Part shown: piece after piece, positions 5,418-16,288 of the stretch
Position numbering within the stretch: the first letter of the stretch is position 1
How the letters are laid out: each line of letters opens with the position of its first letter
The notes under the pieces: model-generated
What the model was told of the DNA's origin: nothing
Databases searched by the model: none
Seen by the model: only the letters and a program-made list of their open reading frames with translations
Assembly (NCBI RefSeq): GCF_003852405.1
Contig: NZ_QAJM01000008.1
Span: 1 to 39,701 of the forward strand
DNA length: 39,701 nucleotides
DNA from: Pseudomonas sp. KBW05
Lineage (GTDB): Bacteria; Pseudomonadota; Gammaproteobacteria; Pseudomonadales; Pseudomonadaceae
Direction of reading: 5' to 3'
Translations under genes and position numbers: made by a program

Positions 5418-6254
5418 ATGCGTAATCTGATGTTTTCCAGTGTGTGCCTGCTCTCCACCGCCCTGATGGGCTGCCAGCAGCAACCGCCCGCCAACGACCA
5501 ACTGGACGCGGTGCTGTGGACCCAGACCTCCATCGAGCACGAGCTGATTTACCGCCAGGTCTTCGCCAGCGCCACCCGCCAGCTGGACGCGGCCCTGGCC
5601 GACCCGACGTGGGACGCCCTGCCCTTGCCGCCGCGCAATCTCAGCGGCCTGCCCCCGGCCGTGGTGGTGGATATCGACGAAACCGTGCTGGACAACGTGC
5701 CGCTGAATGCGCGGGACATCCTCACCAACCAAGTCTATTCCTATGATCGCTGGAACACCTGGGTCGATCAGGCCAAGGCGCAGGCACTGCCGGGCGCTGT
5801 GGAGTTCCTGCAGGCAGCGGACAAGAAAGGCATCACCGTCTACTACATCACCAACCGCGAACACAGCCAGGTCCAGGCCACAGTCAACAACCTGCGCCTG
5901 CGCGGTTTCCCGGTGGCGCACAACGAACAGGTGCTGGCCGCCAGCACCCCGACCGGGCACTGCGAGCAAGCCGGTTACGGCAAGAACTGCCGGCGCCAAT
6001 GGGTCGCCAGCCACGCCCGCGTGCTGATGCTGGCCGGTGACTCCTTCGGCGACTTCGTACAGGCCGAACACAACACCCTGGCCGAGCAACGCAAGGCGGC
6101 CGCGCCGTACCTGGCCTGGCTCGGCCAGCGCTGGTTCCTGCTGCCCAACCCGACCTACGGCAACTGGTACAGCGCGCCCTATGGCGATCAGGAAAAACTG
6201 CCCTTCGAACGCAAGCGCCAACTCAAGCAACAGGCGCTGCACCTGGAAAACTAG
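5418..6254 (+). CDS. Lipoprotein acid phosphatase, e(P4)/class C HAD family
   Basis: A 278-residue HAD-superfamily acid phosphatase of the e(P4) type. A lipoprotein signal peptide ends LMGC with the lipidated Cys19; Met at -2 is less common, but the charged n-region and h-region are clear. The catalytic DxD is VVVDIDETVLDN (Asp85 nucleophile, Asp87). TNRE acts as motif II, and the acidic MLAGDSFGDF closes the metal site. In Haemophilus, e(P4) dephosphorylates NMN to nicotinamide riboside on the outer membrane, feeding PnuC. Here a pnuC homologue starts 16 bp downstream and a TonB receptor ends 12 bp upstream. That supports a periplasmic step which strips phosphate from an imported nucleotide or vitamin phosphate. 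Substrate choice (NMN, TMP/TPP or other) is open. Confidence 0.88.
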   Translation: MRNLMFSSVCLLSTALMGCQQQPPANDQLDAVLWTQTSIEHELIYRQVFASATRQLDAALADPTWDALPLPPRNLSGLPPAVVVDIDETVLDNVPLNARDILTNQVYSYDRWNTWVDQAKAQALPGAVEFLQAADKKGITVYYITNREHSQVQATVNNLRLRGFPVAHNEQVLAASTPTGHCEQAGYGKNCRRQWVASHARVLMLAGDSFGDFVQAEHNTLAEQRKAAAPYLAWLGQRWFLLPNPTYGNWYSAPYGDQEKLPFERKRQLKQQALHLEN

Positions 6255-6270
6255 CTGTTGAGAGAGCCCT

Positions 6271-6837
6271 ATGTCGCCACTGGAAATCGTCGCCGTCTGC
6301 TTCAACATCGCCGGGGTCTGGCTCACCGCACAACGAGTGCGCTGGTGCTGGCCGGTCAGCGTCGTCGCGGTGTTGTTGTATGCCTGGATCTTCTTCGAGG
6401 TGAAGCTGTATTCGGACATGCTCTTGCAACTGGTCTTCGCCGTACTGCAAGGCTATGGCTGGTGGCGTTGGAGCACCGGGCGCGTGGACGCCGGCAAGGT
6501 GCGGGTGGAACGCCTGCCGATGCAGGAGGCGTGGCGGCACTTGCTGGCGGGCTTGATCGGCGCTGTGGCCCTGGGCGCGGTGATGCACCACTTCACCGAC
6601 GCCGCCCTGCCCTGGCTGGACTCGCTGCTCACCGCCTTCAGCCTGGTGGCCAGCCTGTGGGCTGCGCGCAAATACGTGGTCAGCTGGTGGTTGTGGATCG
6701 TGCTGGATGCGGCCTATGTCGGGCTGTTCCTCTACAAGGACCTGCACCTCACCGCCGCCCTGTACGCCGGTTTTGTGCTGCTGGCGGCCTACGGTTTGCG
6801 GGCCTGGCAACGTGACCTGCGCCAGCAGGAAGGGTAG
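6271..6837 (+). CDS. pnuC: PnuC-family vitamin/nucleoside transporter
   Basis: A 188-residue inner-membrane protein with about seven hydrophobic segments across its whole length. It has the PnuC signatures: LLQLVFAVLQGYGWWRW near residues 50-68, and WWLWIVLDAAYVGLFLYKDLHLTAALY near 135-165. PnuC homologues move nicotinamide riboside (PnuC), thiamine (PnuT) or riboflavin (PnuX) by facilitated diffusion, trapped by phosphorylation inside the cell. The operon offers both a periplasmic phosphatase just upstream and a cytoplasmic APH-fold kinase, which fits that trapping logic. The presence of a ThiK-like kinase and a THI5-like protein leans towards thiamine-type cargo. The sequence alone does not separate PnuC from PnuT. 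The gene symbol denotes the family only. Confidence 0.85.
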   Translation: MSPLEIVAVCFNIAGVWLTAQRVRWCWPVSVVAVLLYAWIFFEVKLYSDMLLQLVFAVLQGYGWWRWSTGRVDAGKVRVERLPMQEAWRHLLAGLIGAVALGAVMHHFTDAALPWLDSLLTAFSLVASLWAARKYVVSWWLWIVLDAAYVGLFLYKDLHLTAALYAGFVLLAAYGLRAWQRDLRQQEG

Positions 6838-6875
6838 AGTCACGCCCACGTCATGCCTGCCTACGGAACCCCAGG

Positions 6876-7610
6876 ATGCCTTTCGACCCCATTTCTCCGC
6901 ACTACCAGCGCATCCGCGAACAGATCGCCCACGACATCGCCGCTGGCAGCCCCCAGGCCGACGAGAAATTCCCCTCCGAGCGGGACATGATCGAACGCTT
7001 CGGCTGCACCCGCGTGACCTTGCGCCAGGCCTTGCAGCAACTGGAGGCCGAGGGCCTGGTCTACCGCGAAAACCGCCGGGGCTGGTTCGTCAGCCCGCAG
7101 CGCATCCGCTACGACCCGACGCGCATCAGCGGCTTTATGGACTACGTCAGCGCCCAGGGCCGCACGCCCCGCACCGAATGCCTGCACGCCGAACTGCGCC
7201 CCGCCGGCCCCTGGCTGGCCAAGCGCATGGGTCTGGCCTCGGCGGACGAACCGGTGTTCTTCCTGCAACGCCGCCGCTGGATCGACCGCCGCCCGGTGCT
7301 GCTGGAATTCAACGCCCTGCTCGCCAGCTGGTGCCCCGGCCTGCTGGACGCCGACCTCAACACTTCACTGACCCAACTGCTGCGTGAACGCTTTGCCCGG
7401 GTGCAATCGCGCTGCGAACTGGAGATGCATATCGGCACGGTCAACGAGGAACAGGCGGAGTTGCTGCAACTGTCGCCCGGTTCCACCAGCGTCTACCTGG
7501 AGCGCTTGAACTTCGGCGAAGACAACCAGGCCGTGGAATTCGACCAGGAATTCTGGCGCCCGGATGCGTTGTCGATTGTGATGGAGACGCGGTATCCGGG
7601 CACGCGGTGA
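6876..7610 (+). CDS. GntR-family regulator with UTRA ligand domain
   Basis: A 244-residue HutC/PhnF-type repressor. The winged helix-turn-helix covers residues 8-74, with FPSERDMIERFGCTRVTLRQALQQLE and the wing GLVYRENRRGWFV. The UTRA effector domain follows (about 85-235), with the conserved VFFLQRRRWIDRRPVLLEFN and VYLERLNF strands. It is last in the run, 38 bp after pnuC. Regulators of this class bind TGGT-N4-ACCA palindromes and are released by a small ligand, often a substrate of the operon. The palindrome at 175-186 is the obvious target. The gene ends four bases from the convergent hcp stop, leaving no room for an ordinary terminator. Confidence 0.9.
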   Translation: MPFDPISPHYQRIREQIAHDIAAGSPQADEKFPSERDMIERFGCTRVTLRQALQQLEAEGLVYRENRRGWFVSPQRIRYDPTRISGFMDYVSAQGRTPRTECLHAELRPAGPWLAKRMGLASADEPVFFLQRRRWIDRRPVLLEFNALLASWCPGLLDADLNTSLTQLLRERFARVQSRCELEMHIGTVNEEQAELLQLSPGSTSVYLERLNFGEDNQAVEFDQEFWRPDALSIVMETRYPGTR

Positions 7611-7614
7611 GGTA

Positions 7615-8103
7615 TCAGGCTTTTACGTTCTGCCGGATATTCCAGCCAAACTTCACCGGCCCACCGTCCTTGGCGCCGTCGGCTTTCTGCGGCTGGTAGC
7701 TGACATCGACGGTGGCGAAGTTCAAGGCGATGCGGTCGTAGAGCAGATCATCCTTACTCTCTGCACTAGTGCTGTAGGACACCACCATGACTTCCTTCAA
7801 CGTGATCACCAGATACTCCACCGGACTGGAACCGCCCGCCTTGCGCACCACCAACCGCGCTTCGGGGTAATGTTTGCCGCTGGCGCAGGCCATCATCAGG
7901 TTGGGGCTGGATTTATCCAGCGGTTTGCTCAAGTTCAGGTTGCCGATATCGACCTTGCCCGCACCGCCTCCCGTACCGGAATGCATCGACCCCGTCTGCG
8001 ACAACCCCCACGCCCATTCGGTGATGTCGATCTCATCGCGGTGCGCCTGGTCCCGTGACTCACCTTTGATATCGCCCAGCTTCAAAAACATATCGACGGC
8101 CAT
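7615..8103 (-). CDS. hcp: Hcp, type VI secretion tube protein (Hcp1-like)
   Basis: A 162-residue Hcp. It starts MAVDMFLKLGDIKGES and ends KFGWNIRQNV-KA; from memory of the P. aeruginosa Hcp1 sequence it matches almost residue for residue in blocks such as SPNLMMACASGKHYP and YQPQKADGAKDGGP. Hcp hexamers stack into the secreted tube and also chaperone small effectors in their lumen. No other type VI structural gene is present, so this is an orphan island hcp. It is transcribed away from a duplicated membrane-protein cassette that starts 188 bp upstream, the arrangement expected for an Hcp-delivered effector. A small hairpin (GCGCC/GGCGC near 8130-8145) lies in its leader. Confidence 0.95.
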   Translation of the reverse strand: MAVDMFLKLGDIKGESRDQAHRDEIDITEWAWGLSQTGSMHSGTGGGAGKVDIGNLNLSKPLDKSSPNLMMACASGKHYPEARLVVRKAGGSSPVEYLVITLKEVMVVSYSTSAESKDDLLYDRIALNFATVDVSYQPQKADGAKDGGPVKFGWNIRQNVKA

Positions 8104-8171
8104 GTTGGCTCCCTGTCCTTAGTCAGCGCCGGAAATGGCGCGGGGCGAACTTTTCCTGATCCGACCCGAGG

Positions 8172-8580
8172 GCCACAAGCCGCCACAGCAGGATCGGGAA
8201 GCGCCTGTCGGCAAACACCGAAACTTCCGACATTCATTTGCGCCGCCCCGTCTTTAACCTCTCAACTCCCGGAAAACCCAGGAGTTAAGGAATGACGACC
8301 GCCCTGTTCAAAGATGGATTCCCCTCGGCCCACCGCAGCACGCGCCAACGGATTGAAGGCCGCATTGATCTGCGGCGGCTATTCTCCGCCATCGACGCAG
8401 ACCCTGCGCTGATTGGTGCGGGGGTGGTGTATATCGATGAGGATTTCAATGTGCTGACACTGCGCGAGTTCCAGGCGGTGTGCAGTGTGCAAGTGAAAAA
8501 GGTGGTGTTGCGTGAGGCACCGAGGGCGGTGGGGCCGGTGGAGTTCAAGCGGATGTTGGAGCATGAGCCGCGGGAGTCGA
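8172..8580 (+). repeat. Tandem duplication arm 1: cassette leader plus first ~96 codons
   Basis: This 409-bp segment recurs at 9746-10154 with a constant offset of 1574 bp and no gaps. The 120-bp leader differs at about five positions. The first ~96 codons encode nearly identical peptides with only a few substitutions. Beyond 8580 similarity falls sharply. It covers the whole promoter/leader and conserved N-terminus of the cassette. Confidence 0.9.
8264..8286 (+). promoter_or_regulatory. Leader hairpin sequestering the Shine-Dalgarno (copy 1)
   Basis: AACTCC (8264-8269) can pair with GGAGTT (8281-8286), which contains the ribosome-binding GGAG six bases before the ATG at 8292. Outer U-A, C-G and U-G pairs can extend it past one mismatch. 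The same hairpin is kept at 9838-9860. Several GGA triplets in and beside the hairpin could be Rsm-type sites. Both readings are inference. Confidence 0.4.
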
Positions 8581-9159
8581 ACTTGGTGGCCGAGGCGCTT
8601 ATCACAGCAGTGACATGCGCAGGAGCGATACTGAGTTGGTTCGTCGTTACGAGTGGAGTTACGCTCATGCCGTTTACGGCTGGGACAAGCGTGGTGCTTA
8701 CGTTTGTCGGTAAAGCCGCCATGGCTGCCAGCGTCACCCAATGCTTTATCGGCGTTGGTAGAACAACCGCCGAATGGATTGACCCACAAGCGCTGGACCG
8801 TCTCGACGATGAAGTCTGGTACCAGGCGGCAGTCGCAGTATTGGATGGCATCGCCCTGGCTGGAATAGGGACATCCACCTTGACGACAATCAAAGCAATC
8901 AATGTCAGTACCCGAGCAACGAGCAAAACTCAATAATGAATTGCTCAGAATCAATGACCCGCGACTGACCACAAAGCTACTCAAACTGAAGCAAGCTGCC
9001 GGCACTGCGACCAAACGCATCAGTGCGGCACAGATAAAACGTATCACCGCTACTCACATAGGAGATGCCATAGCAGGAGTATTTGGAGTCACCAGTAGCT
9101 CCTTGTCCGGGAACATCAAGCCACTCGCTATCGGTCTTTATGAGGAGATTCGCCATTGA
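8292..9159 (+). pseudogene. Frameshifted copy 1 of Hcp-linked membrane-active effector candidate
   Basis: Two frames (8292-8936 and 8902-9159) together match the intact paralogue at 9866-10780. The first encodes 214 residues, near-identical to the paralogue over residues 1-98 and diverged but alignable through three hydrophobic segments (about 106-126, 128-153 and 180-203). It then ends in a short off-frame tail. The second resumes at EQRAKLNNELLRINDPRLT, matching QERAKLTNELLRIQDPRLT. Measured to the shared NELL codon, copy 1 is 47 nt shorter, so a net out-of-frame deletion splits the gene. A truncated 214-residue protein keeping all hydrophobic segments could still be made. An in-frame 48-nt loss plus a one-base sequencing error is also possible. 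Confidence 0.75.
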
Positions 9160-9725
9160 AAAAACGGCGAGCACAAAAGATCCTGGAAAAATTGGGCTAC
9201 AGCGATCCCCCCGCGCCTGACTGGAAAACCATGAGCGCAAAAGATTTTTATTATTCAACCTTCTACATCACTGACCCACGACTGCTACGCAAACGCTACA
9301 TGCATGTCATTGGTGGCTGGATGCTTGCGGGGTGTTTTTCAATTGCCATGACCGGCGTTCTGGTTTTGGTCACCTATCTCTCCGGAGCACTCGAAGAAGG
9401 AACCTTGCGCAACTGGTTTTTTTCCGGGCTGACGATCGGCGTGGTGTTCGCTATTGCTCAAATACAAGTGTTGTATGGTCACCCTCATTGGGTCTGGATA
9501 AATGTCGGGATCTACTGCCTGTGCTTTTTGAGCTCACTCCCCGCCATCACGTACAACCCCAACATTTACCTGTATTCCATGGCTCTTCTCAGCCCCCTGA
9601 TCGGCCTACTCATCCTCAACAGCAACCGCTGCCGCGAACTGCGCCACAAGATGGTTGAACTCCGCCACAAGCGCGAGCACATCATCACCACCCTGAAAAA
9701 ACAGGGTAAATGGAAATGGTTGTGA
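9156..9725 (+). CDS. Four-helix membrane protein, candidate immunity protein (copy 1)
   Basis: A 189-residue protein with four predicted membrane helices (about 50-77, 86-107, 111-130 and 138-155) and a basic cytoplasmic tail. The start is TTG at 9156, overlapping the TGA of the upstream frame (TTGA). The paralogue has ATG at the equivalent place (ATGA), and both begin MK-RR, so I accept TTG. The C-terminus RHKREHII-TLKKQGKWKW is almost identical in the two copies, while the N-terminal ~50 residues differ in length and sequence. Position directly after the effector candidate, translational coupling and membrane topology fit an inner-membrane immunity protein. No family is recognised. With the upstream gene broken it may be an orphan immunity gene. 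Confidence 0.7.
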   Translation: MKKRRAQKILEKLGYSDPPAPDWKTMSAKDFYYSTFYITDPRLLRKRYMHVIGGWMLAGCFSIAMTGVLVLVTYLSGALEEGTLRNWFFSGLTIGVVFAIAQIQVLYGHPHWVWINVGIYCLCFLSSLPAITYNPNIYLYSMALLSPLIGLLILNSNRCRELRHKMVELRHKREHIITTLKKQGKWKWL

Positions 9726-9745
9726 GCCAATACTGTAACGGCTGC

Positions 9746-10154
9746 GCCACAAGCCGCCACAGCAGGATCGGGAAGCGCCTGTCGGCAAACACCGAAACTT
9801 CCGACATTCATTTGCGTCACCGCGTCTTTAACCTCTCAACTCCCGAAAAACCCAGGAGTTAAAGAATGACGACCGCCCTGTTCAAAGATGGATTTCCCTC
9901 GGCCCACCGCAACATGCGCCAACGAATTGAAAGCCGCATTGACCTGCGGCGGCTGTTCTCCGCCATCGACACCGACCCTGCGCTGATTGGTGCGGGGGTG
10001 GTGTATATCGATGAGGATTTCAATGTGCTGACACTGCGCGAGTTTCAGGCAGTGTGCAGTGTGCAGGTGAAGAAGGTGGTGTTGCGTGAGGCACCGAGGG
10101 CGGTGGGGCCGGTGGAGTTCAAGCGGATGTTGGAGCATGAGCCGCGGGAGTCGA
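9746..10154 (+). repeat. Tandem duplication arm 2: cassette leader plus first ~96 codons
   Basis: Gapless copy of 8172-8580 at a 1574-bp offset. It starts 20 bp after the copy 1 second gene stops, so the duplication placed an independent leader and start site in front of the second cassette. The hairpin AACTCC/GGAGTT recurs at 9838-9843 and 9855-9860. Confidence 0.9.
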
Positions 10155-10780
10155 GATGGGTGGCGGAGGCGACGAAGACGGCGGTGACCTGCGCTGGGGC
10201 GTTGTTGAGTTGGCATGTCATTTACAGTGGGATCGCGCTGATGCCTTTTACCGCGGGTGCCAGTGTTGTCATCTCATTCGTAGGCACGGCCGCCGTCGTC
10301 GCAGGCTTGTTTCAATGCGCCGTCGGCGCCAATCGAACCCTGAACGAAGTGTGGGACCCACGCAGAAATGACTACTTGGACAGTAACGCTTGGTACGAAG
10401 GGATAATGCTAGCGCTGGACGGTATTTCCTTGCTGGCCGTGGGTACTTCTGCAGTGACCACAATGAAGGTCATCAACTTGTCCAAGAAGGCGACCGGCAA
10501 GCCACTACGGGAAGTACTCCGGGGATTAAGTCGGCAAGAACGCGCCAAGCTCACGAATGAACTGCTCCGGATCCAGGACCCGCGATTGACGCCAAAACTA
10601 CTCAAGCTCAAGCAGGCCGCGGGCGATCTATCCAAACGATTTCCAGCGACACAGATAAAACCCATCACTCACATGCACTTCAAAGATATTGCTGCGGCAG
10701 GGTTGAGCCTTACTAGCAGCACAACATCCGGGAACACGCGGATATTGGCCATCGGTATCTATGAAGAGTTCGCCGAATGA
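9866..10780 (+). CDS. Hcp-linked membrane-active effector candidate (copy 2, intact)
   Basis: A 304-residue protein of no family I recognise. Residues 1-100 are soluble and highly conserved with copy 1; this part could be a delivery or Hcp-docking region. Residues 106-126 and 128-155 form a hydrophobic hairpin rich in Gly/Ala/Ser (ALLSWHVIYSGIALMPFTAG, then SFVGTAAVVAGLFQCAVGA). Residues 179-203 form a third hydrophobic segment. A basic, soluble C-terminal part (205-304) follows. No signal peptide is visible, as expected for a type VI cargo. Context (divergent hcp, four-helix partner coupled by ATGA) suggests a pore-forming or membrane-disrupting toxin, similar in concept to Tse4-type effectors but not shown to be homologous. 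The role is inference. Confidence 0.7.
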   Translation: MTTALFKDGFPSAHRNMRQRIESRIDLRRLFSAIDTDPALIGAGVVYIDEDFNVLTLREFQAVCSVQVKKVVLREAPRAVGPVEFKRMLEHEPRESRWVAEATKTAVTCAGALLSWHVIYSGIALMPFTAGASVVISFVGTAAVVAGLFQCAVGANRTLNEVWDPRRNDYLDSNAWYEGIMLALDGISLLAVGTSAVTTMKVINLSKKATGKPLREVLRGLSRQERAKLTNELLRIQDPRLTPKLLKLKQAAGDLSKRFPATQIKPITHMHFKDIAAAGLSLTSSTTSGNTRILAIGIYEEFAE

Positions 10781-11262
10781 AAAACCGACGTTCGCCCTCT
10801 TTCTTCGTAGATCCCCGCTCAATTTGGGCTCGTCACCGGCTGGCGCTTTTTGGAGGAATTTTAGCCCTGTGCTTTTCAGTCGGCACGGCCAGCACTCTGA
10901 TGAACCTCACCTACTTCGCCGACTCATCTGATGAGTTTGCGACGGGCGCGTTTTTCATTGGCAGCGCAACAACCTGCGCACTATTTGGCATCGCACAGAG
11001 CGCAGTGCTCCATGGTTATCCGCAGTGGGTTTGGCTACAGGCTGGCGTGTTCATGCTCTATTTCCTGGCTGCTTTGCCAACCGCCATTTATAGCCCCGAC
11101 CGCATCCTATTTACCCTGGCCGTTCTGAGCCCATTGGTCGGACTGTTGTTTATAAACAGCAAGCGCCAAAGGGAAATGCGCGGAACGATGCTCGAACTCC
11201 GCCACAAGCGCGAACACATCATCGCCACCCTGAAAAAACAGGGCAAATGGAAATGGTGGTAA
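10777..11262 (+). CDS. Four-helix membrane protein, candidate immunity protein (copy 2)
   Basis: A 161-residue protein with four membrane helices (about 22-46, 55-77, 83-105 and 109-127) and a basic tail ELRHKREHIIATLKKQGKWKW shared with the copy 1 protein. Its ATG overlaps the upstream stop (ATGA). Compared with the 189-residue paralogue it lacks an N-terminal stretch of about 28 residues, and its helices differ more than its tail. This is the pattern expected if the helical part tracks changes in the cognate toxin. GC content drops relative to flanking genes. No named family is recognised; immunity is inferred from context and topology. Confidence 0.7.
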   Translation: MKNRRSPSFFVDPRSIWARHRLALFGGILALCFSVGTASTLMNLTYFADSSDEFATGAFFIGSATTCALFGIAQSAVLHGYPQWVWLQAGVFMLYFLAALPTAIYSPDRILFTLAVLSPLVGLLFINSKRQREMRGTMLELRHKREHIIATLKKQGKWKWW

Positions 11263-11289: not shown

Positions 11290-12642
11290 TTATGCACCAA
11301 CCGCTCGCAAAGGCTCAGCCACCCGCGCCGCCGTATGCCGATTGACCGGTACCGGCAACCCCAAATGCCCGCGCAAGGTGCTGTGGCTGTATTCACTGCG
11401 GAACAACCCGCGCTCACGCAACAGCGGCAGCACTTGATCGGTAAAGCGCGCAAAGTCATCCGGCGCACCGACGTGGATGTTGAACCCATCCACCGCACCT
11501 TCGACGAACCAACGCTCGATCTCATCGGCGACGGTCTGCGGTGAGCCGACAAAACTGGAGAACGGCTTGGCAAAGCGCAACGCCGCCTGGCGCAAGGTCA
11601 GGCCCTGGTCACGGGCGACTTGCTTGATGTTTTCCGCGTGGCCGCGATAGCCATTGCTGCCCAGATCGCCAAGTTCCGGGAACGGTTCGTCCAGCGGGTA
11701 TTGGCTGAAATCGTGGTAGTTGAACGGCCGCCCCAGTTGCACCAGCGCCTTGTCCAGGTCCAGCTCGCCATTGCGTTCACGGTCGATGGCCTGGGCCTGT
11801 TCGTCGGTGTCGGCAATGATCGGTGAAATGCCCGGCAAGATGGTCACGTGGTCGGGGTTGCGCCCGGCGGTTGCCGTGCGTTGCTTGATGTCGCGGTAGT
11901 AGGCCTGGGCGTCTTCGAAGTTGCCCACGCCGGCAAAAATCCCCTCGGCATAGTTCGCCGCCAGGCTGCGCCCGGATTCGGAAATCCCGGCCTGGAAAAT
12001 CACCGGTTGACCTTGGGCGGAACGGGCGATGTTCAGCGGCCCGGTCACGGCGAAAAACTCGCCCTGGTGATCGAGACGGTGTTGGCGTTGCGGATCGAGG
12101 AACACCTTGCTGGCCTTGTCGCGCACAAAGGCATCGTCTTCATAGGAGTCCCACAAGCCCTGCACCACGTCCAGGTGCTCGGCGGCGCGGCGATAGCGTT
12201 CGGTGTGGTCGATATGCTGCTCGCGGCCAAAGTTGCCGGCGGCGCCTTCCAGGCCGGTGGTGACCAGGTTCCAACCGGCGCGGCCGCCGCTGATATGGTC
12301 CAGGGAGGCGAACTGGCGGGCGACGTTGAAGGGTTCGGTATAGGACGTGGTCAAGGTCGCCACGAGGCCGATTTTCGACGTGGCGCCGGCGATGGCCGAC
12401 AGCAGGGTCAACGGCTCCAGGCGGTTGAGAAAATGCGGCGCCGAATCTGGTGTGATGTAGGGGCTGTCAACAATGAACACCAGGTCGAACTTGGCCGCTT
12501 CGGCCTGCCGGGCCTGGGCGCGGTACCAGTCGATATCCACGCTGGCGTCGCCGGGGATCTGCGGGTGCAACCATTCGTTTTGCGCGGTGCCGACGCCGGT
12601 GAGGATGGCGCCGAACTTGAGTTGCCGGGGTGTCGTGGACAT
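11290..12642 (-). CDS. LLM-class flavin-dependent monooxygenase (NtaA/SnaA/DszA family)
   Basis: A 450-residue FMNH2-dependent monooxygenase of the bacterial luciferase superfamily, NtaA/DszA branch. Recognisable blocks are KFGAILTGVG, EAAKFDLVFIVDS, LEPLTLLSAIAGATSKIGLVAT, ASLDHISGGRAGWNLVTTG and YRRAAEHLDVVQGLWDSYEDDAF. I start at 12642 because GGAGGAG lies seven bases upstream; an upstream in-frame ATG at 12693 would add residues with no homology. Such enzymes use reduced flavin from a separate reductase, which is not in the window, to cleave C-N or C-S bonds in chelators, sulfones or sulfonates. It has its own leader with a 13-bp motif shared with the gene starting at 23548. Substrate is unknown; an organosulfur compound is likely. 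Confidence 0.88.
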   Translation of the reverse strand: MSTTPRQLKFGAILTGVGTAQNEWLHPQIPGDASVDIDWYRAQARQAEAAKFDLVFIVDSPYITPDSAPHFLNRLEPLTLLSAIAGATSKIGLVATLTTSYTEPFNVARQFASLDHISGGRAGWNLVTTGLEGAAGNFGREQHIDHTERYRRAAEHLDVVQGLWDSYEDDAFVRDKASKVFLDPQRQHRLDHQGEFFAVTGPLNIARSAQGQPVIFQAGISESGRSLAANYAEGIFAGVGNFEDAQAYYRDIKQRTATAGRNPDHVTILPGISPIIADTDEQAQAIDRERNGELDLDKALVQLGRPFNYHDFSQYPLDEPFPELGDLGSNGYRGHAENIKQVARDQGLTLRQAALRFAKPFSSFVGSPQTVADEIERWFVEGAVDGFNIHVGAPDDFARFTDQVLPLLRERGLFRSEYSHSTLRGHLGLPVPVNRHTAARVAEPLRAVGA

Positions 12643-12686
12643 GGGGGTTACTCCTCCGTGGATGGCCGTTGAAGCTGACATTAATA

Positions 12687-12730
12687 GCCCCACAGGGGCC
12701 TTGTGAAAGGCTTTATAGGTCTATGCTAAT
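12687..12730 (-). promoter_or_regulatory. LLM gene leader: hairpin and shared 13-bp motif
   Basis: GGTCTATGCTAAT (12718-12730, plus strand) differs at one base from GGTCTAAGCTAAT at 23818-23830 upstream of the TonB receptor gene that starts the same region. It lies 76-88 bp before this gene. On the coding strand the motif reads ATTAGCATAGACC and is followed by TATAAA, a possible -10. A GCCCC-TGT-GGGGC hairpin (12687-12699) follows in the leader. The shared motif suggests one regulator or promoter type; its identity is unknown. Confidence 0.5.
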
Positions 12731-12769
12731 TATTAAAAATACTGATTACTAAAAACCTACAACATTCTT

Positions 12770-13990
12770 TTATTGCATATATAAAGCAACCTGCGCCTTG
12801 GCTTGTGCTGCCTGCACCACACGCAACAGATTTTCGCCCCAGATATTGGCCAGATCCTTTTCGCTGTACCCCGCATCCAGCAAACGCTGGGTGATCTTCG
12901 GCAACTGGCTGACGTCCTCCAGCCCGATCACCCCGCCACCGCCGTCCCAATCGGCACCAATGCCCACATGCTCAGGGCCGACCACCTCGAGGATGTGCAA
13001 CAAGTGCTTCATAAACACATCCAGATCGGGCTTGGGTTGCGGGAAGCGCTGGTTGACCGCTGCGATATCCCCATGCAATGCCTTGACCTGCTCCGGGCTC
13101 AGCCCCGCCAGGTTGCGGTACTGCGCATACAGCGGCGCCAGGGCTTTTTGCCGTTCGGGATTGGGCTTGAGCGGCACCAGGTAATCGCCGTAGCTGTTGA
13201 CCTGCACCACGCCCCCCTTGGCCGCCAGTTGCCGCAGCCGCGCATCGTCGAGGTTGCGCGGGTGGTTATTGACCGCCTTGCTGCTGCTGTGGGACGCAAT
13301 GATCGGCGCAGTGGACGCCGCCAGTACCTGGTCGAATACCGCGTCGGAAGCGTGGGACACATCCAGCAGAATCCCCAGCCGGTTGGCCTGCGTCACCAGT
13401 TCACGGCCTTTGGGACTGAGGCCGTGCCACTTGGGCAATGCGGTCGCCGAATCAGCGATTTCATTGGTGCTGAAATGCACCAGCCCGAGCATGCGCAAGC
13501 CCTGGCGATAGTAGGTCAACAGGCGTTGCGGATCGGCACTGAGGGGGTCAGCGTTTTCCATGCTGATAAAGACCACCCGCTTGCCCGCTCCCGCGATTCT
13601 TCGCGCATCGTCCGGGGTCAGTGCCAGTTCGAAAGTCTGCGGCGAACGCTCTGCCAGATCACGGATGCGCGCCAACATCGCCAGCCCGTAGTTGCTGGCA
13701 CTGGCGCGGCCCTCATCGGTGTCGGGCACCGGCGCGGTGTAGATCACCCAGAAGCCGCCATCGAGACCGCCGTCTTGCATGCGCGGCACATCCACCTGGC
13801 TGCCATCCTCGGCATAGGTGTGGCGGGCGAGGATGTCCCAGCCGGGGCGGGACAATTGCATCGGTGTATCGAGGTGGCTGTCGAGCACCAGCAAACGCTG
13901 ATGCAACGCCAGCGCCTCAGGGCTGACTTCGTCGGCGGCATGGGCAGTCATGGCGACCATGCACAGCGCCAGCAGGTATCGGCTGTTCAT
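12770..13990 (-). CDS. Exported membrane dipeptidase, peptidase family M19
   Basis: A 406-residue zinc dipeptidase of the renal-dipeptidase family. A signal peptide (residues 1-19, cleaved after AHA) targets the periplasm. The metal and active-site landmarks are LDSHLDTP (His39, Asp41), VFISMENADPLS (bridging Glu), MLGLVHFSTNEIADS, LLDVSHASDAVFD and IIASHSSSKAVNNHPRN. The family hydrolyses dipeptides, including D-residue and cysteinyl-glycine or dehydro dipeptides. The gene starts three bases after the TonB receptor gene upstream, so a receptor plus periplasmic dipeptidase form a unit. This fits import of a small peptide and its cleavage before inner-membrane transport by the amino-acid ABC system of the same region. 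Confidence 0.9.
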   Translation of the reverse strand: MNSRYLLALCMVAMTAHAADEVSPEALALHQRLLVLDSHLDTPMQLSRPGWDILARHTYAEDGSQVDVPRMQDGGLDGGFWVIYTAPVPDTDEGRASASNYGLAMLARIRDLAERSPQTFELALTPDDARRIAGAGKRVVFISMENADPLSADPQRLLTYYRQGLRMLGLVHFSTNEIADSATALPKWHGLSPKGRELVTQANRLGILLDVSHASDAVFDQVLAASTAPIIASHSSSKAVNNHPRNLDDARLRQLAAKGGVVQVNSYGDYLVPLKPNPERQKALAPLYAQYRNLAGLSPEQVKALHGDIAAVNQRFPQPKPDLDVFMKHLLHILEVVGPEHVGIGADWDGGGGVIGLEDVSQLPKITQRLLDAGYSEKDLANIWGENLLRVVQAAQAKAQVALYMQ

Positions 13991-13993
13991 CGA

Positions 13994-16288
13994 TCAAAAC
14001 TCCGCACTGAGGGTGGTCTGGAAGGTGCGCGGCGAACCGGGCCGGTAGTAGGCCGGCCCGCTGGCGCTGGTGAGGATGTAGCCGAGGTAGTCCTTGTCGA
14101 AGAGGTTGTCGATGTTGAAGCGCAGCTTGACGCTCTTGAGCGGCCCGTAATGCAAACGCTCGCCGCCAAGGTCGAGGTAGGCGTTGTAGAGCGTGTAGCC
14201 CGGCACCGATTCGGTGTTGGTGAAGTTGCTGTAGCGCGAGCCGATATGCCGCCCGGAAAAATTCAGCACCGCCCACGGCGCCAGCTCGTAGGTGATGCCC
14301 GCCTGCGCCAGCCAGCGCGGGCTGTCGGGGATGTTGTTGTCCTTGAGGGACAGCCCGGCGGCATCGTCCTTGAACTGCGCGATGTTGTAGGTGAGGTTGC
14401 CGTTGAGCACCAGTTTGTCCGCCAGTACCGGCGGCTTCCATTGCCCGCTCAACTCGGTGCCGTAGGCCAGCGCGCGACCGACGTTCTGGTAGTAGGTTTC
14501 GGCGGTGCTGCTGCCGGCCACCGGCGAGGCGAAGGCTTGCAGACGGTTATCGAACTCGGTGCGGTACAGCGCCCAGGCGGCGTTGAACGTCGGACGATTG
14601 AGGCGGTAGCCCACCTCGTAGTTCTTCGAAGTCTCCGCCGCCGGTGCCGGCGCGTTGGGGCTGGCCGCGCGGAACACATCGTCGGCGCCCCGAGGCAGCG
14701 CCATGTTCTCCGAGTAGGAGGCAAACAGCTGGGAGTTGGCCGTCAGGTCATACACCAGCCCGGCCTGGGGCAGGAAGTTGTCGGTCCATGACGTGCTCAG
14801 GCGCGGCTGGCGGTTGGCGATGTAGTCGCCAGCATTGCGATAGCCTTCGATGCGGTAGTCCAGGTCCAGGCGCTTGAAGCCGTATTGCAGGCGCAGGCGG
14901 TCATCGAGCAGGGTCCAGGTGTCTTTGATGTTCAGTTGCAGGGAGTCGCGGGTCGAGGTGAAGTCGCCCTGCTTGTGCACCGGCTCATTGAACAGCGGGC
15001 TGCCATCGGGGCTGCCGTCGCTCAGGTTGTAGCGCGCTTGCAAGCGGTTGAACACATCCTTTTCGGCCCACACCCCGGCTTCGATCGCATGCTGGCCGAC
15101 GTGCCAGGTCAAGCTGCTGCGCCCGCCGTAACGGTGGCCGCTGAGGGATGACAGCCCGTATTGCACACCCCGCGGATCGACCAGGCCGGGCACGTTGGCC
15201 TCGGCGTTATGCAGCGCCAGCGAGGTGCTGTAGGCCTCGGGGGACACGCCGAAACCTTTCTTGGCTTCGTAGTAGACGCTGGTGCTGCTTTCCAACGCAT
15301 CGTTGAGCAGAAAGTTGCCGGTGAGGCTGTACAAGGTGTCGCGCCGCTGGTTGATCGCCTGCTTGTACGACTGGTTGTAATTGGGATTGCTGTAGGGCAC
15401 GCCAGCCACGGTTTCGGGTTGCGGCGGCACTTCCTTGAGGTAAGCAAAATCGCGCCCGGAGCGACCGAACGGATCATTGGCGGTGCCGTGGTATTGGGCC
15501 TGGGTCACATAGGGCGAGTCGTAGTCATAAAAGTCGTTGTGCACCGCGCGAAACAACAGCTCATGCCCCTCGCCGAACTGATAGCGCACTTTGCCTTCCA
15601 GGTGCTCACGGTCGATGGTCCCGGGGCCGCGCCACAGGTCGCCGTCGATCTTCGAGCGGCTGAAATACGCCGACAGCCCCGCATGCTCGCCAGTTTGCAG
15701 CTTGACGAAACTGCGTCGCAGGCTGTCGCTGCCCAGGGTGTATGACGTACTGACCCCGGCGTCCTTGGCCGGGTTCGTGGAGATGTAATCCACGTACGGC
15801 CCCAGCGAGGTATACCCCGGCTGCGACACGTCCCCGGCGCCGGTGGACGCGGTGACGCGTTCGGTGTTTTCGTTATCGACGTAGCGGTAGATCGGGCTGC
15901 CACCAAACTGGTCACTGCGTCCCAGGGGCACACCGTCGATGGAGAAGCCGATCTGTTGCAGGTTGAACGCGCGCACGAACACCGAGTTGCCGAATTCGTA
16001 GAGGCCCAGGGCATCGTTGGACTGCACGTTGAAGCCGGGCAAGGCTTCGAGCATCTTCAAGCCTGAGGTACCGGCGGGCGCCGACTGCAAGGCTTGATGG
16101 GAAATGGTCAGGGTGTTGCTGATCTGGTCAGTGCCAATCGCCAGGTTGGCCTCGGTGACACGCGCGCCGACCACTTCGACTTTGTCCAACTGCGCTTCTT
16201 GCGCCAGCACGCCCTCGACCGTCAGGCCCATCAACAGGAGCCCGCTCAACCATCTCTTGTTCGCCAGTGACTCACGCTGATTGCTCAT
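13994..16288 (-). CDS. TonB-dependent outer-membrane receptor
   Basis: A 764-residue receptor. The N-terminus has a long polar start and then a hydrophobic signal ending VLA (residue 29). DKVEVVGARV is the TonB-box-like segment. The plug carries LKMLEALPGFNVQSN, SVFVRAFNLQQIGFSIDGVPLGR and ERVTASTGAGDVSQPGY. The barrel ends LSAEF with terminal Phe. The plug diverges from classical siderophore receptors: no PGG motif, and an unusual SLGPYVDYIST strand in its place. That would fit a non-iron substrate. It precedes the M19 dipeptidase by three bases and follows a strong stem-loop in the 119-bp gap after the RidA gene. Substrate unknown; peptide-like by context. Confidence 0.88.
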   Translation of the reverse strand: MSNQRESLANKRWLSGLLLMGLTVEGVLAQEAQLDKVEVVGARVTEANLAIGTDQISNTLTISHQALQSAPAGTSGLKMLEALPGFNVQSNDALGLYEFGNSVFVRAFNLQQIGFSIDGVPLGRSDQFGGSPIYRYVDNENTERVTASTGAGDVSQPGYTSLGPYVDYISTNPAKDAGVSTSYTLGSDSLRRSFVKLQTGEHAGLSAYFSRSKIDGDLWRGPGTIDREHLEGKVRYQFGEGHELLFRAVHNDFYDYDSPYVTQAQYHGTANDPFGRSGRDFAYLKEVPPQPETVAGVPYSNPNYNQSYKQAINQRRDTLYSLTGNFLLNDALESSTSVYYEAKKGFGVSPEAYSTSLALHNAEANVPGLVDPRGVQYGLSSLSGHRYGGRSSLTWHVGQHAIEAGVWAEKDVFNRLQARYNLSDGSPDGSPLFNEPVHKQGDFTSTRDSLQLNIKDTWTLLDDRLRLQYGFKRLDLDYRIEGYRNAGDYIANRQPRLSTSWTDNFLPQAGLVYDLTANSQLFASYSENMALPRGADDVFRAASPNAPAPAAETSKNYEVGYRLNRPTFNAAWALYRTEFDNRLQAFASPVAGSSTAETYYQNVGRALAYGTELSGQWKPPVLADKLVLNGNLTYNIAQFKDDAAGLSLKDNNIPDSPRWLAQAGITYELAPWAVLNFSGRHIGSRYSNFTNTESVPGYTLYNAYLDLGGERLHYGPLKSVKLRFNIDNLFDKDYLGYILTSASGPAYYRPGSPRTFQTTLSAEF

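Follow-up and report, generated by a model that had tools for sequence, protein, structure and literature searches.

The 39,701-nucleotide (nt) stretch of Pseudomonas DNA analysed here (the window) belongs to contig C68 of its own genome (G000; 6.5 Mb in 69 contigs) and carries an orphan hcp gene, encoding the TssD tube protein of the type VI secretion system (T6SS), on the minus strand. This gene faces two tandem effector/immunity pairs on the plus strand, each preceded by a promoter-like element. The effector of the second pair matched the NCBIfam model NF053808 (‘Ssp4 family T6SS effector’) along the full profile and above its cut-off. With a probability of roughly 90%, we read the locus as an orphan-Hcp auxiliary T6SS module, with Ssp4-family pore-forming effectors, of a Pseudomonas that probably falls within the P. 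fluorescens group. The features are as follows.

Gene layout and the broken effector copy

7615–8103, minus strand: orphan hcp (TssD tube protein); PF05638, 131.2 bits
8225–8261, plus strand: promoter-like element TTCYGACATT-N16-TCTTTACNCTC, 5′ of effector copy A; 1 mismatch to the pattern
8292–8936, plus strand: N-terminal part of effector copy A, 214 codons, Ssp4 family, broken gene; NF053808, 244.8 bits, profile 1–196 of 280, below the 300-bit cut-off; frame stops early
8902–9159, plus strand: detached C-terminal part of effector copy A, 85 codons, different frame; NF053808, 71.1 bits, profile 207–280
9156–9725, plus strand: immunity A, Sip4-like, 189 amino acids (aa), four hydrophobic segments, open frame; assigned by position, hydropathy and likeness to immunity B
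9799–9835, plus strand: promoter-like element, 5′ of effector copy B; 1 mismatch to the pattern
9866–10780, plus strand: effector copy B, Ssp4 family, intact, 304 aa; NF053808, 351.7 bits (cut-off 300), profile 1–280 of 280
10777–11262, plus strand: immunity B, Sip4-like, 161 aa; start overlaps the effector B stop by 4 nt (10777–10780)

The duplication of the cassette opposite hcp, which a first-pass annotation made from the sequence had pointed out, is far from chance. A 300-nt repeat with 95% identity (8172–8471 against 9746–10045) spans the upstream region and the effector N-terminus, and two further tracts (172 nt at 75% and 130 nt at 74%) lie close to the 3′ ends of the immunity and effector genes. 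The N-terminal part of effector A shares 74% identity with effector B over 212 aa, while the two immunity proteins share 47% over 152 aa. The same annotation had taken each pair to be whole and translationally coupled. This holds for pair B, where the effector is intact and overlaps its immunity gene, but not for copy A, which lacks about 47 nt relative to copy B, so that its C-terminal remainder stands in another frame. The first frame of copy A stops at 8936, and immunity A, whose start overlaps the stop of the detached fragment, begins about 220 nt further on; coupling to the N-terminal product is thus lost. Copy A is most simply understood as a decayed effector, and the open immunity A as leftover armour against a former weapon or that of neighbours.

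Alternatively, the 214-residue product might still be made and either act as a shortened effector or accompany copy B as its partner or decoy. By hydropathy, it keeps all three strong hydrophobic segments ahead of the break, and broken or partial effector copies with open immunity genes recur in relatives. However, it is devoid of the conserved C-terminal third as well as of the coupling to the immunity gene, and the break points vary between loci, as decay would give. We therefore consider a functional short product unlikely and retain the interpretation of copy A as a decayed gene.

Family assignment and T6SS context

NF053808 was the sole NCBIfam family matched by copy B above a curated cut-off; the MakA pore-former model, for instance, gave 16.2 bits against a cut-off of 320. 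According to the 2025 report on Serratia marcescens Db10 (PMC12669606), Ssp4 is a non-lytic, cation-selective pore-former with three predicted transmembrane (TM) helices, an Hcp-dependent cargo that is toxic from the periplasm and not when cytoplasmic, while Sip4 is a four-TM-helix inner-membrane protein that neutralises it. The fold predicted for the family has 13 helices and one sheet; a large Pseudomonas branch is reported as well, and Hcp or VgrG is encoded next to some family members. The likeness to the window comprises the full-length model match, the leaderless effector with three predicted helices, the downstream four-helix immunity gene and, in some members, the hcp neighbourhood. 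On these grounds the window proteins are assigned to the already described Ssp4/Sip4 family and not to a new one.

The topology was examined with simple Kyte–Doolittle windows, a crude measure. Copy B exhibited peaks at residues 107–125, 134–152 and 179–197 and a weaker one at 30–48, corresponding to a hydrophobic hairpin plus a third helix, and its N-terminus was judged by eye to be without a signal peptide. Immunity A gave four peaks and immunity B five overlapping windows, or approximately four segments. These profiles agree with the hairpin, third helix and roughly four-helix partner that had been foreseen at first pass, and the kind of system predicted there, a membrane-targeting T6SS effector that is linked to Hcp and paired with a polytopic immunity protein, is in keeping with the family match. 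A 4-nt overlap with the picked next gene was found in 23 of the 32 effectors examined.

The genome contains three TssK genes, located on contigs C8, C27 and C42, and none on the window contig. With distance from a core cluster judged by TssK alone, the window hcp lies away from any such cluster and beside effector genes, which bears out its earlier designation as an orphan. Five hcp genes were found in total. Two of them, the window gene and one on C65, are orphans, and each adjoins Ssp4-family genes. The window Hcp shares 80% identity with the C65 orphan, 64% with the Hcp of the C8 cluster and 30% over 53 residues with that of C27, and comparison with the C42 frames gave no match. Judged by these sequences, the C8 system would be the likeliest user of the window module. 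Apart from broken copy A, the genome holds five Ssp4-family frames that no stop interrupts: window B, one on C11 and three on C65. The second orphan-hcp locus (L016, C65:291500–303000) comprises three Ssp4-family effectors with immunity genes.

By analogy to Serratia Ssp4/Sip4, from which loading, pore formation, ion selectivity and protection are extrapolated, leaderless effector B would be held soluble inside Hcp rings, possibly those formed by the product of the divergent hcp gene, and one of the T6SSs of the cell would inject it into the periplasm of a neighbour. There, the hairpin and third helix would enter the inner membrane and oligomerise into a cation-selective pore that collapses the membrane potential without lysis. 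Immunity B, as a four-helix inner-membrane protein, would protect the producer and its kin. What the locus and genome display directly is the homology, the gene order, the frames, the three TssK genes, the repeats and the upstream element.

Several points weigh against this reading. Profile searches were run with both proteins, as first proposed; the effector matched NF053808, whereas the immunity proteins gave no above-cut-off match in Pfam, NCBIfam or PADLOC (PHROGs lay outside the search), and their assignment follows from position, topology and mutual similarity. Membership of the effector in the family derives from NF053808 and from a statement on Pseudomonas homologues in PMC12669606, and the evidence on the window effector is at sequence level. 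An AlphaFold model of copy B, built from a 21-row alignment, contained 13 helices at a mean predicted local distance difference test (pLDDT) score of 37.9 and was unusable. Finally, an hcp match stood beside the effector in one of the 30 best-scoring genus loci (L020–L049, flanks of about 1.5 kb) and in 12 of 40 further chosen loci (L050–L089); hcp adjacency is a trait of some branches.

Three other explanations of the locus were considered. An unrelated membrane toxin–antitoxin or bacteriocin system might stand beside hcp by accident, as the many family members away from T6SS genes would allow. The homology to a T6SS effector family, the position of both orphan hcp genes next to family members and an upstream element common to vgrG and other T6SS genes make this very improbable. 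Also very improbable is another pore-former class, such as Tse4, Ssp6 or BTH_I2691/VasX-like proteins, alike in hydropathy only. These are likewise membrane-active T6SS effectors with immunity partners, but in NCBIfam only NF053808 was matched by copy B above a curated cut-off, and the MakA score was far below its own. For Tse4, PMC8262886 supports such a description in part. The undescribed family proposed in the first-pass annotation, for which the absence of any above-threshold Pfam or PADLOC family for effector and immunity proteins might speak, is refuted, unless the model is mis-named, by the full-length NF053808 match and by the 2025 publication, which includes Pseudomonas homologues. 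What began as an ‘unknown toxin’ thus falls into a pore-former family that has a name and can be tested.

Modular arrays and decay in relatives

A survey of 200 genus genomes (own included) revealed 72 with an NF053808 match, 67 of them over the cut-off, while among 369 genomes across the class (own included) the family occurred in three, the own genome among them, too few to trace the Serratia branch. All 19 close-relative loci came from Pseudomonas records, most of which we take to belong to the P. fluorescens group. An hcp match was found beside the effector in 18 of these 19 (in L107 as a fragment only; none in L104). The locus is a modular array of hcp (minus strand), effector and immunity gene (both plus strand) that is repeated, reordered and decayed in relatives. 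Locus L055, for example, reads broken effector, immunity, hcp, effector, immunity, hcp, effector, immunity, and only a 20-residue hcp stump is left between the cassettes of L052/L098, which represent one genome region. The window locus may accordingly be the same unit after loss of its second hcp. In the near relative L090 the B-like copy comes first, indicating that cassettes have been reordered.

An open immunity-like frame was kept in six of the eight judged loci with a broken or partial effector (the window, L055, L077, L081, L082, L083, L107 and L108; L084, a ninth such locus, is cut off by the end of its contig), although these loci were chance finds and not a sample. The immunity frame is truncated in L082 and fused in frame with effector remnants in L108, while the L081 frame matched the immunity set with an E value of 5e-10. 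The best relative of immunity A was found in L061 (72%). Across 32 effectors, residues 1–100 were the most constant, with 74–79% mean pairwise identity per 20-residue block, against 43–71% after residue 100. Effector and immunity distances were weakly correlated (Spearman 0.22, 0.36 and 0.39 for three effector segments, over pairs of 32 loci); eight of the 32 immunity picks had an odd gap or length, the pairs lack independence, and nothing here is built on this correlation.

Compared with Serratia Ssp4/Sip4, the Pseudomonas branch is distinguished here by a repeating hcp/effector/immunity unit, some copies of which have decayed. Its evolution would consist in the amplification of whole units and the decay of effectors, with immunity genes often persisting. 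To judge by its title, a report on T6SS immunity-gene arrays of V. cholerae (PMC5361080) describes a similar situation, in which effectors are sequentially displaced and diverse immunity genes remain; in the present case, however, the remnants follow a promoter-leader stump that they share, and the effector belongs to an Hcp-type cargo family. The orphan VgrG module of P. ogarae F113 (PMC10671463) also has an unlinked T6SS structural gene that travels with associated genes, but that gene is VgrG there and Hcp here, and the beginning of its abstract does not mention a shared upstream element. The window locus is an ordinary, though neat, member of the family described in 2025; what deserves to be followed is the shared element.

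The upstream element and its shared head

Alignment of effector upstream regions revealed a conserved block. The short motif GACATT-N{14,20}-TCTTTA occurred six times in the own genome, always with a spacer of 16, against three matches of the backward control; with CTTCY in front, five sites remained and the control gave none. The six sites precede window A, window B, two Ssp4-family genes on C65 (C65:296582 and C65:298171), a lipase gene on C58 (C58:6976) and a vgrG gene on C33 (C33:112792). The C58 locus (L122:4569–6695) carries behind the element a short leader frame, then the class-3 lipase gene (PF01764) and a lipoprotein-like gene downstream (lipobox assigned by eye). In the C33 locus (L135:3362–7035), DUF4123 and DUF3304 genes come after an orphan vgrG.

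A wider scan used TTCYGACATT-N16-TCTTTACNCTC with at most 2 mismatches on the 200 genus genomes, a set that is not independent as it includes those in which the element was first noticed, and the backward pattern as control. It yielded 43 sites in 20 of the 200 genomes, compared with two for the control. By the downstream gene, 38 of the 43 were assigned to T6SS genes: 16 to Ssp4-family effectors, 13 to vgrG, five to stand-alone Sip4-like immunity genes and four to lipase, VasX/BTH_I2691 or DUF3304/Tle1 modules. Five of the vgrG assignments were made by N-terminal likeness and not by profile (G037:C54, G037:C66, G101:C4 with a broken frame, G048:C61 and one of G059). Sites in G106 and G169 are probably due to chance, the downstream frame being judged by eye, and no T6SS gene was in sight of the G004:C10 site. 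A perfect element in L198 (G139:C1:1005846) precedes a 413-codon frame with a weak SH3_3 match that might be an unrecognised effector. In L230 (own C11:166121), a two-mismatch element is followed by a likely remnant of a vgrG start, recognised by eye, and a DUF7079 gene.

The element is confined to a subgroup of the genus. Two of the six Ssp4-family copies in the own genome are without it, which weighs against its being a general feature: upstream of the C11 gene and the first C65 gene, the best matches within 500 nt had 8 and 10 mismatches. Likewise, the 16 Ssp4 sites fell in nine genomes while 72 have an Ssp4 match, so that most family members are without the exact element. In the examined parts of the three main clusters (L018, L136, L137 and L138), only two 2-mismatch matches to the short motif were seen, both without the flanking bases, and a weight-matrix scan of these parts found no site. 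The short motif with spacers of 13–20 was hardly in excess in 12 chosen genomes (29 matches against 23 for the backward control); 18 of the 29 had spacer 16, and on inspection four of these 18 (L174, L178, L183 and L193) were not T6SS-linked and were without the flanking bases. In 57 ‘relatives’ genomes, GACATT-N{13,20}-TCTTTA matched about as often as its control with scattered spacers, which is uninformative. A variant, GTCCTACATT-N16-GCTTATGCTCC, gave six sites in three of 100 genomes (control 0), by coordinates all at Ssp4-family genes; it was, however, drawn from one locus in each of the same three genomes. An inverted repeat (TGTCGG...CCGACA) around the element was dropped, as by eye it is kept only in the window, L090 and L093, and sigma-54 control was set aside, the element being unlike the −24/−12 motif. 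No title or abstract beginning returned by searches of open-licence literature described the element.

For several pairs of unrelated genes, similarity extends beyond the element, takes in the ribosome site and ends after the first codons. Ten heads were compared in 45 pairs over the 58 nt after the element and over the next 60 nt. The strongest unlike pair was lipase against vgrG L200 (z 14.1), followed by the Ssp4 head L216 against Sip4-like L205, which carries an effector stump (z 12.8), against lipase (z 11.9) and against vgrG L200 (z 11.5); in these pairs the next 60 nt scored about zero. Weighing against a uniform head, the window head resembled vgrG more weakly (z 0.9–3.3), the DUF3304/Tle1 head (L208) is without the following leader of Ssp4 (z −0.7 to 1.4), and in some Ssp4–vgrG pairs the sequence further upstream was similar too (z up to 6.1).

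At five sites (L204, L205, L215, L220 and L229), a Sip4-like gene stands behind an effector-type head. Their best matches to the immunity set were 36–40% (E 2e-19 to 3e-25), and no Ssp4-family match was found in the 3–5 kb examined around each. By eye, three read on from an effector-like start and two are preceded by an effector-like stump. We infer that the effector was deleted and the immunity gene kept under the promoter of the effector.

We consider it an even chance that, in a Pseudomonas subgroup around the own genome, dispersed, otherwise unrelated T6SS auxiliary genes share a conserved head of about 95 bp that works as a regulatory switch for all of them and as a joint for swapping or deleting effector bodies, with immunity genes keeping the promoter, and that they form an unreported T6SS auxiliary regulon. 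The proposed head would comprise the element and the ribosome site, in many cases also the initial codons (like MTSSVL), and would be shared by ssp4, orphan vgrG, lipase, VasX-type and Tle1 modules and stand-alone Sip4-like immunity genes. If the element is a promoter, scattered T6SS effectors, spikes and immunity genes would be under one control, and it would provide a sequence tag for effectors without a recognisable domain.

Shortly downstream of the lone Sip4-like gene in L229, a 453-aa protein (L229:1748–3106, minus strand) gave a weak, below-cut-off HrpK/HrpF-type match. The genes that flank the module in the window are, judging by their translations, acid-phosphatase-like, PnuC-like and GntR-like at 5418–7610 and flavin monooxygenase-like, dipeptidase-like and TonB-receptor-like at 11290–16288.

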